Source: Bacteroidales bacterium (GTDB lineage: Bacteria > Bacteroidota > Bacteroidia > Bacteroidales > JAQUTK01). Taken from it: a stretch of 64,000 nucleotides of DNA. The translations under genes and the position numbers were made by a program. Location of the stretch: positions 1 through 64,000 of the forward strand of contig JAQUTK010000004.1 in NCBI GenBank assembly GCA_028709785.1, given 5' to 3'. Under the pieces are notes generated by a model, which ran no database searches, was not told the origin of the DNA, and worked only from the letters and a program-made list of their open reading frames with translations. Of the stretch, positions 24,331 to 44,393 are shown in pieces (position 1 is the stretch's first letter; each line of letters starts with the position of its first letter).

Positions 24331-24375
24331 AAGAGGTTTTCAGTTTCAACCAAAGAAAGAAAGGAAAATGAATGC

Positions 24376-24415
24376 AAAAAAATACAGATTGTTATTCCAT
24401 GAATAACAATCTGTA
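24376..24415 (-). terminator. Terminator of the lon-Nudix operon
   Basis: A perfect 15-bp stem (24383-24397 with 24401-24415), 3-nt loop, followed on the minus strand by seven T residues. The stop codon of the Nudix gene (24392-24394) lies in the stem. Confidence 0.85.
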
Positions 24416-41872: not shown

Positions 41873-42443
41873 TTTCAGTTCCTTTCTTTTCTTTTCTGTT
41901 TACGCCTCCGAAGAACTTATCTGTCTTCACCTTCCGTTGCAGCTGCATCATTCCATAGAGCAATGCTTCAGGACGTGGAGGACATCCCGGGATAAAGACA
42001 TCCACCGGGATAATTTTATCAACTCCATTAACTACGTGGTATGATTTTACAAAAGGTCCGCCGGAGATGGCGCATCCACCCATTGCAATCACATATTTGG
42101 GCTCAGCCATCTGATCATACAAACGTTTTAATACAGGTGCCATCTTGTTGGTAATCGTACCTGCAACAATAATCACGTCTGCTTGTCGCGGACTGGCACG
42201 CGTCACTTCAAACCCGAAACGGGAAAAATCATACCGGGCGGCACCAACCGCCATAAACTCAATACCACAACAACTCGTTGCAAATGTAAGCGGCCATAGG
42301 GAATTGCTTCTTCCCCAATTGATGAGATCATCAAGTGAACCAACAATAACATCGACACCACCTTCTCTGAGTTGTTTGATTGACTCCAGATATTCATTGT
42401 CATTGAAGTCTTCATATTTCATCGACTTAATTTTCACTTCCAT
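41865..42443 (-). CDS. nuoB: NADH-quinone oxidoreductase subunit B
   Basis: A 192-residue subunit holding the terminal cluster N2. Its ligands are the tandem cysteines in [11 protein letters not shown], one in MGGCAISGG and one in [13 protein letters not shown], so all four are present. [16 protein letters not shown] is a family signature. It overlaps nuoA by 10 bp and nuoCD by 8 bp. Confidence 0.96.
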
Positions 42444-42784
42444 TCCAATGCTCCTTTCTTCCAGGCATATGCAAGACCCAGAACCAAAACAACAAAAAAG
42501 AACAACACATTAATCAGACCGTCGATTCCAGCTTCACGCACAGTAACTGCCCATGGAAAAAGGAAAACAGTCTCGACATCAAACATAAGAAAAAGGATTG
42601 CATACAAGTAGTAACCTACTTTAAACTGCATCCAGGATCCTCCTCTTGTCGGAATACCACACTCGTACGCTTCTCCTTTCTGTTTGTTATAAGAACTTGG
42701 AGAGAGAAGACGTCCAATGATCAAAGCTGCTGCAACAAGTACAATAGCTGTAATCAATACGACTACAAATAGTGAGAGATTCAT
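42434..42784 (-). CDS. nuoA: NADH-quinone oxidoreductase subunit A
   Basis: A 116-residue, three-helix subunit and the first gene of the complex I operon. [43 protein letters not shown] (read in two parts) is the diagnostic NuoA region. No clear TAnnTTTG box is seen in the 95 bp before it; transcription could come from its own weak promoter or by read-through of the terminator at 42878-42936. Confidence 0.95.
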
Positions 42785-42877
42785 AAATTAGAATTACTTA
42801 TTAGTATATAAATTACAAAATGATAACGGATAGCCTGAAATTTTGAGAGAATGGTTCAAGAAGTAACCAAGAGGAAA

Positions 42878-42936
42878 TAAAAAAAGCCTGTTATTCAAGC
42901 TCTCTGATGGCACAGAGTTGATACTTGTAACAGGCT
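42878..42936 (-). terminator. Strong terminator between the candidate small RNA and nuoA
   Basis: Outer stem AGCCTGTTA (42885-42893) with TAACAGGCT (42928-42936), then CAAG/CTTG, then inner CTCTG/CAGAG, forming one long stem-loop. On the minus strand it is followed by seven T residues (42878-42884). It lies about 95 bp before the nuoA start codon. Confidence 0.8.
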
Positions 42937-43152
42937 GTATTCGAGTTTGATTCAGTACGCGTTTATATTCAAGGCAAGAATAAAACCACTTACATATCAG
43001 TAAGCAACACGATTTAAAAGATACGTGAGAATCAGTAGATTGGGCGCAATATTCACCACCCGGTTTCTTTGCATTGGATCTGAAAGCAAAGAGTAGAGTG
43101 CCTTGTATAAATATAACAAAGTCCTGATGAAAATACATACCTATTTTTTAAG
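42878..43152 (-). ncRNA. Candidate small RNA or transcribed leader upstream of nuoA
   Basis: A segment of about 275 nt bounded by a consensus promoter (43159-43191) and a strong intrinsic terminator (42878-42936). A 114-codon open frame (42794-43138) overlaps it but crosses the terminator hairpin, is rich in Cys, Ser, Phe and Leu, and resembles no protein I know, so I treat it as non-coding. I tested it by eye against tmRNA (no tag frame, no CCA end) and RNase P RNA and saw neither. A 6S-type RNA or a nuo attenuator remains possible. Confidence 0.5.
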
Positions 43153-43158
43153 ATGCCG

Positions 43159-43191
43159 CAAAGATAGAAATAATATTTGAATATAAACAAA
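43159..43191 (-). promoter_or_regulatory. Full Bacteroidetes promoter upstream of the candidate RNA and nuo operon
   Basis: On the minus strand: -33 TTTG (43188-43191), 21-nt spacer, -7 TATCTTTG (43159-43166). Start expected near 43152. Confidence 0.7.
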
Positions 43192-43410: not shown

Positions 43411-43530
43411 ATAAAGGATGCCTATTGGTCGATCCAAACGACCTGAAAACTTTTGAATTTTATCAGGACGTTTACTCCGTTTCACTGCAGTGAAACGGAA
43501 GGAATATAAGGATGGTTTTTCCAAAGCATC
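43411..43530. repeat. Palindromic intergenic repeat, copy 2
   Basis: The centre is a 24-bp perfect palindrome (43476-43499) with core CCGTTTCACTGCAGTGAAAC. Blocks shared with copy 3 in the same order: TAAAGGATGCCTAT (43412-43425), AAACGACCTGAA (43436-43447, inverted in copy 3), ATAAGGATGGTTT (43506-43518) and CCAAAGC (43521-43527). Shared with copy 1: TATCAGGA. The outer limits are approximate. Confidence 0.7.
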
Positions 43531-43568
43531 AGGTTGTTTGGCATCAGAAATCAAGGTGCATGAAATTA

Positions 43569-43600
43569 AAAAGGCCGTCTCATTTCTGAGACGGCCTTTT
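43569..43600 (-). terminator. Terminator of the Gfo/Idh-DUF1080 operon
   Basis: A perfect 13-bp stem (AAAAGGCCGTCTC, 43569-43581, with 43588-43600) and a 6-nt loop. Symmetrical A/T ends make it usable in both directions. It lies about 20 bp after the DUF1080 stop. Confidence 0.85.
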
Positions 43601-43619: not shown

Positions 43620-44393
43620 TTATTCAATAACTCTGATTTTAATATTGCGATAATATACATCATTTCCATGATCTTGTAATCCAATATATCCATCGTGGTC
43701 TGCACCACCAATGTTGATAAATGACTCTACACCTTTAAACTTGCAGCCATCAACCATTTTTTTCCAATCATCTGTCCACAAATGGTATTCAACCACATTC
43801 TCACCATTTTGTTTGTGTACGACTGTTCCTTGATATACAAGTACACCACCCGTGTTCCATTCACCAAAAGGCTTTGCATTTTGTGGTTTTGCAGGAATCA
43901 TATCATACAAAGAAGCTGCTTGTCTGTTATTATCTTTACCAAGCAAAGCATCCGGATGGTTTGCATTGTCAAGAATCTGGTATTCCGGAGCAGATTTGTA
44001 AATAGGTTCTCCTTCTACTTCTTGTGCCAGATAGAATACTCCACTATTTGCACCCTTGGTTACTTTGTATTCGAAAGACAACTCGAAATTCTTAAACTTC
44101 TGATCAAAGATGATATCACCACCATCCTTAGCACCAGCTTCACCGTTACCTGATCCGTTGATCTTGAGGCAACCATCTTCAATAGTCCAGGCTTTTGGCA
44201 TGTCTGCACGGTTATAACCTCTCCATCCTTTCAGTGAAGTTCCATCAAACAAAGTAATCCATCCATCATTTTGTTGAACAGAATCAACTGCGACTGGTTC
44301 TGCTTCTGCTTTTTCTTGTTTTGCAGATGAACTGCATGATGCTGATCCGATAATCATCATGACACTGAATAAATAAAAAATACGTTTCATCAT
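43620..44393 (-). CDS. DUF1080 lipoprotein (3-keto-glycoside hydrolase family)
   Basis: A 257-residue envelope lipoprotein (lipobox IGSASC, C20). The jelly-roll DUF1080 domain covers about 45-257: WITLFDGTSLKGWRGYN, GGDIIFDQKFKNFELSFEYKV, GANSGVFYLAQEVEG, APEYQILDNANH and the terminal YRNIKIRVIE. Recent work assigns family members to the cleavage of 3-keto-glycosides after a Gfo/Idh/MocA enzyme has oxidised C3 of the sugar. The gene before it is exactly such an oxidoreductase, 23 bp upstream, so the two probably form one pathway. The sugar substrate is not readable. Confidence 0.88.
   Translation of the reverse strand: MMKRIFYLFSVMMIIGSASCSSSAKQEKAEAEPVAVDSVQQNDGWITLFDGTSLKGWRGYNRADMPKAWTIEDGCLKINGSGNGEAGAKDGGDIIFDQKFKNFELSFEYKVTKGANSGVFYLAQEVEGEPIYKSAPEYQILDNANHPDALLGKDNNRQAASLYDMIPAKPQNAKPFGEWNTGGVLVYQGTVVHKQNGENVVEYHLWTDDWKKMVDGCKFKGVESFINIGGADHDGYIGLQDHGNDVYYRNIKIRVIE

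Follow-up and report, generated by a model that had tools for sequence, protein, structure and literature searches.

What is made, and to what end, from the stretch of DNA just upstream of the respiratory complex I (nuo) operon in this uncultured Bacteroidales bacterium? A first-pass annotation made from the sequence alone had marked positions 42878 to 43191 of the window (the whole 64,000-nt stretch that was analysed) as a promoter followed by a strong hairpin short of nuoA, and had offered either an independent small RNA or control of the operon by premature termination. We weighed these readings, together with a short protein gene and an unregulated leader, using comparison with related genomes, structure prediction, and RNA and protein family searches.

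Promoter and terminator ahead of nuoA

The leader features all lie on the minus strand, as do nuoA, nuoB, and nuoCD (Table 1). The consensus promoter was borne out as a perfect match read from 43191 to 43159, and the earlier coordinates, the spacing of ~275 nt to the hairpin, and the gap of ~95 bp to nuoA (which begins 94 bp beyond the terminator) were likewise right. Five perfect promoter matches occur on the two strands of the 64 kb, against 0 to 5 (mean 1.8) in ten shuffles, and the one described here is the sole perfect match upstream of nuoA, at position -407 here and -406 in the sister species, where TTTG and TATCTTTG are unchanged and the spacer is 20 rather than 21 nt. Elsewhere, on the minus strand at 24354-24384 of the window, a terminator-like hairpin (TACAGATTGTTATTCATGGAATAACAATCTGTA plus a T run) is followed directly by another perfect promoter match, TTTG-N20-TATCTTTG (from 24354).

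Table 1 Positions of nuo leader features in the window
Feature	Position	Strand	Remark
Sigma-ABfr type Bacteroidetes promoter, TTTG-N21-TATCTTTG	43159..43191	(-)	perfect 10/10 consensus match
Promoter elements	TTTG 43191-43188; TATCTTTG 43166-43159	(-)	strand of nuo
Predicted transcription start, ~43152	43148..43155	(-)	inferred from promoter position
Antiterminator 5' strand (predicted), AATAGGTATGTATTT, RNA 5' end	43131..43145	(-)	same in both species; includes leader-ORF ATG
Candidate leader ORF, 114 aa	42794..43138	(-)	crosses terminator; ends 9 nt before nuoA
Antiterminator 3' strand (predicted), GAATACAGCCTGTT	42929..42942	(-)	overlaps terminator 5' arm
Terminator hairpin, inner CTCTG/CAGAG stem	42885..42936	(-)	-21.1 kcal/mol in terminator scan
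Seven-T run 3' of terminator hairpin	42879..42885	(-)	read from sequence
Terminator-to-nuoA stretch	42785..42878	(-)	final ~40 nt nearly identical in sister species
nuoA, first complex I operon gene	42434..42784	(-)	protein 99% identical in sister species

The composite hairpin noted earlier also stood, at about -21 kcal/mol and with its structure kept in the sister species. It reads AGCCTGTTACAAG..CTCTG..CAGAG..AATAACAGGCT, then seven T, and in a strict terminator scan of the window it ranked second in stability among 18 sites and was the only one with seven consecutive T, while a generic terminator scanner detected just a shorter form of it. The hairpin folds at a predicted -21.6 kcal/mol here and -21.3 kcal/mol in the sister species, where a wobble change preserves it, and the two-species alignment scores z = -6.5 against column shuffles (0/500 as good). 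The part of the leader 5' of the terminator scores z = -2.8 (2/300).

Conservation statements rest on a family of two genomes, the host and one sister species (MAG Bacteroidales bacterium STD2_256), whose contig runs collinear with 27 kb of the window. Among 59 other genomes, this sister alone gave a full-length match to the 416-bp segment (82% identity). Conservation upstream of nuoA in relatives, which the first-pass annotation had named as a check, held in part: the promoter and terminator sit at matching positions in the sister species and were found together in 0 of the 58 other genomes of the order. Three further matches to the segment were all short, and the short DNA matches in two genomes (G020 and G045) were merely promoter-like sequence ahead of unrelated genes. 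In a comparison set of 80 nuo loci from other Bacteroidales, a promoter at or close to consensus stands 60-180 nt ahead of nuoA in many, mostly without an intervening terminator. Two loci that do carry promoter and terminator before nuoA (L055 and L065) were rejected as a different device, in which the RNA 5' end leaves the terminator arm unsequestered and a ~28-aa ORF lies in between. That small ORF (L055:2832-2915, L065:2825-2908; MMSKxxIxKRLK...) stands directly before nuoA, is 52% identical between the two loci, and gave a single weak match (E 0.03) across 393 genomes of the order.

Comparison of the two species shows hardly a change in the promoter or in the initial ~36 nt of the RNA, but 60 differences (24%) in the 254-nt leader body. 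This divergence exceeds that of nuoA-nuoH (3-9%) and of most other stretches, with the upstream intergenic region alone higher (32%), and is near the synonymous divergence of nuoB (0.29) and above that of nuoA (0.15).

Farther upstream, a strong hairpin at 43571-43600 (GGCCGTCTCA..TGAGACGGCC) directly follows a 257-aa lipoprotein-like gene (43620-44393) and is probably the terminator that divides this gene from the nuo leader. Separately, 43416-43533 (core palindrome 43476-43499) holds one copy of an imperfect palindromic repeat that is dispersed through intergenic DNA, with core CCGTTTCAC..GTGAAACGG and flanking arms AACGTCCTGA / TCAGGACGTT. About 20 partial copies of the repeat occur in this genome, and ~140 bp around the present copy are missing from the sister genome.

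A predicted helix that competes with the terminator

When the RNA was folded up to the 5' arm of the terminator, its 5' end AAUAGGUAUGUAUUU faced GAAUACAGCCUGUU here and AAAUGCAGCCUGUU in the sister species. The predicted duplex (43145-43131 with 42942-42929) has 14 bp and energies of -13.4 and -13.0 kcal/mol in the two species, and its single bulged A is the A of the leader-ORF AUG. Its 3' strand covers most of the 5' arm of the terminator, so that in the predicted folds the two structures are mutually exclusive. Covariation is minimal, amounting to two pairing-preserving changes on one strand in two species: the sister 3' strand differs by a G to A and an A to G, each opposite U, and pairing is retained at both. 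A common duplex equally good arose in 3/300 column-shuffled alignments and in 0.25% of 5'-end shuffles, and the sequestration of GCCUGUU shared by both species was matched by 1/400 column shuffles, values that are somewhat optimistic because the helix had first come to notice in a fold and was put to the test only afterwards.

In both species, folding the RNA at successive lengths gave the antiterminator a probability of 0.92-0.96 until about nt 265-266 (0.83 at the final step in the sister) and, from nt 269-270 onward, gave the terminator 0.94-1.00. By this prediction, the antiterminator gives way to the terminator only once the 3' arm of the latter is nearly complete; in the full-length RNA, the terminator is favoured by a predicted ~4-5 kcal/mol. 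RNA polymerase covers about the last dozen nucleotides of its transcript, and therefore the antiterminator would remain favoured at equilibrium while the T run is being made. On these folds, read-through would be the resting state and termination would require an occupied 5' end, though kinetics may instead favour the local hairpin.

These observations incline us, with some reserve, to read the span as the start of the nuo mRNA, untranslated or translated only as a leader, that carries a transcription attenuator. Hallmarks of an attenuator are present in the two species, namely an intrinsic terminator between the promoter and the first gene, and a conserved, exclusive antiterminator that shares a strand with it. 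Computational support extends to both structures, to the way they exclude each other, and to their being conserved in two species; a role of the promoter in transcribing nuo, the direction in which control would act, and the signal are matters we infer. In the proposed mechanism, transcription would begin near 43152, and the 5' end of the emerging RNA would pair with 42942-42929, holding most of the terminator 5' arm. If this helix persisted while polymerase crossed 42936-42879, transcription would read through into nuoA; if the 5' end were occupied or opened, the terminator would form and release a ~270-nt leader RNA, which may itself act in trans. Our best guess at the signal is ribosome loading at the leader ATG, or binding of a protein or RNA there, because this ATG sits within the antiterminator.

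The main competitor is an independent sRNA gene of ~270 nt, complete with promoter and terminator, that lies upstream of nuoA by chance; nuo would then be served by a weaker promoter of its own within the final ~90 nt. A promoter plus terminator is indeed the usual sRNA layout, and RNA of leader length folds better than shuffles (z -2.67). The near identity of the final ~40 nt before nuoA in both species would also suit a separate nuo promoter there, but the conservation of these nucleotides is not above that of nuoA itself. In both species, the stretch between terminator and nuoA contains no above-chance promoter (best 8/10, attained in about one-third of shuffles), although nuoA may yet have a weak promoter close by, or one for an alternative sigma factor. 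The terminator thus stands, here and in the sister, between nuoA and the only above-chance promoter; this arrangement is one reason for preferring the attenuator and offers indirect support for a promoter that would drive nuo by read-through. The other reason is that a conditional leader has a use for a helix in competition with the terminator, and a plain sRNA has none. Against an sRNA stand also the body's divergence, far above that of nearby genes and most intergenic stretches, and the Rfam results: no family at gathering threshold in a scan of the window, and chance-level matches only in a relaxed-threshold search of the span. The suggested links to 6S or Bacteroidales RNAs found no support. 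The 6S models RF00013 and RF01685 had no match in the genome (the latter, 6S-Flavo, also matched no positive control, so that a Bacteroidales 6S may escape these models), and the genome's one copy of Bacteroidales-1 RNA (RF01693) sits on another contig (C17). Of the two options first offered, the attenuator has gained a conserved, exclusive antiterminator and a setting with no other above-chance promoter, while the sRNA stays in play as a rather unlikely alternative.

An open frame through the leader

The span had been described as unlike coding sequence, and this needs qualifying: a 114-aa ORF covers it, though the evidence for a selected protein is weak. The frame starts at 43138, ~14 nt past the predicted transcription start and inside the antiterminator, and its counterpart in the sister species has ~107 codons, is also open through the terminator, and ends 28 nt before nuoA. 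It could therefore be a short, fast-evolving protein gene, whose message would either end at the terminator before the stop codon or continue to nuoA. In favour of such a gene, the frame is open in both species beyond chance (in 0.5% of shuffled bodies, and 3% after random placement of the substitutions), the 60 substitutions of the body came without an indel whereas other intergenic stretches show about one indel per 16 substitutions, nonsynonymous codons are slightly fewer than random (33 vs 38 expected; 4.9% of placements), and the start region is conserved. Measures of selection on the product point the other way: substitutions fall evenly over codon positions (19/20/21), dN/dS is ~0.7 for the two species, codon use is inside the range of stop-free random frames (21% of random as good), amino-acid replacements are not conservative, and conserved residues are lacking. 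Family searches also speak against a conserved small protein, as Pfam and NCBIfam gave no match to the ORF, and 295 genomes of the order gave one match outside the genus (30% identity, E 9e-4, to a 574-aa frame). Together with the frame's lack of a stop ahead of the terminator, this makes a protein gene improbable, and the 114-aa frame is at most a possible leader ORF rather than a gene with a selected product.

A leader peptide of the kind read in ribosome-mediated attenuators is not apparent either, for the frame has no stop ahead of the terminator and its translation contains no run of a single codon. A ribosome-gated form of the complex I attenuator, in which ribosome loading at the start codon buried in the antiterminator would decide termination and the ORF would run stopless to the terminator, strikes us as doubtful; if true, nuo expression would report translation initiation capacity.

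Very improbable, finally, is an unregulated leader with a leaky or remnant terminator and a coincidental 5'-end helix: the like of each single element arises by chance in windows of such size and the antiterminator statistics, from two genomes, are modest, but hairpin and promoter were both retained although a quarter of the body positions changed.

Relation to known RNAs and attenuators

With 6S RNA, the nuo leader has only its size class in common, 6S RNA being one rod and the leader a predicted branched fold. Differential RNA-seq (dRNA-seq) in B. thetaiotaomicron revealed long 5' UTRs with short ORFs, some of which the authors liken to attenuation leader peptides (PMC7366714). Like these, the putative nuo leader is long and has its start codon close to the 5' terminus; unlike them, it has a 114-codon frame with no stop before the terminator, and nuo does not appear in the text of that paper.

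Searches of an open-access library turned up no report of a complex I operon controlled by premature termination. To our knowledge, riboregulation in Bacteroidota beyond Bacteroides is little studied.

The closer likeness would be to attenuators of the trp operon type, ribosomal-protein leaders, and transcriptional riboswitches, which likewise form two exclusive structures that share one strand, in which an upstream strand can hold the 5' arm of the terminator, and whose operon lies directly downstream. Unlike these, the nuo leader comes without a recognised ligand-binding fold, regulatory codons, or a protein site, its body is poorly conserved, and it precedes complex I genes. If real, it would be a compact switch that sets the amount of complex I, with a short leader RNA as a measurable by-product. 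The logic of such a switch is familiar and the surprise therefore moderate: as predicted from two related genomes, the nuo attenuator appears to be a further instance of an on/off switch of known kind.
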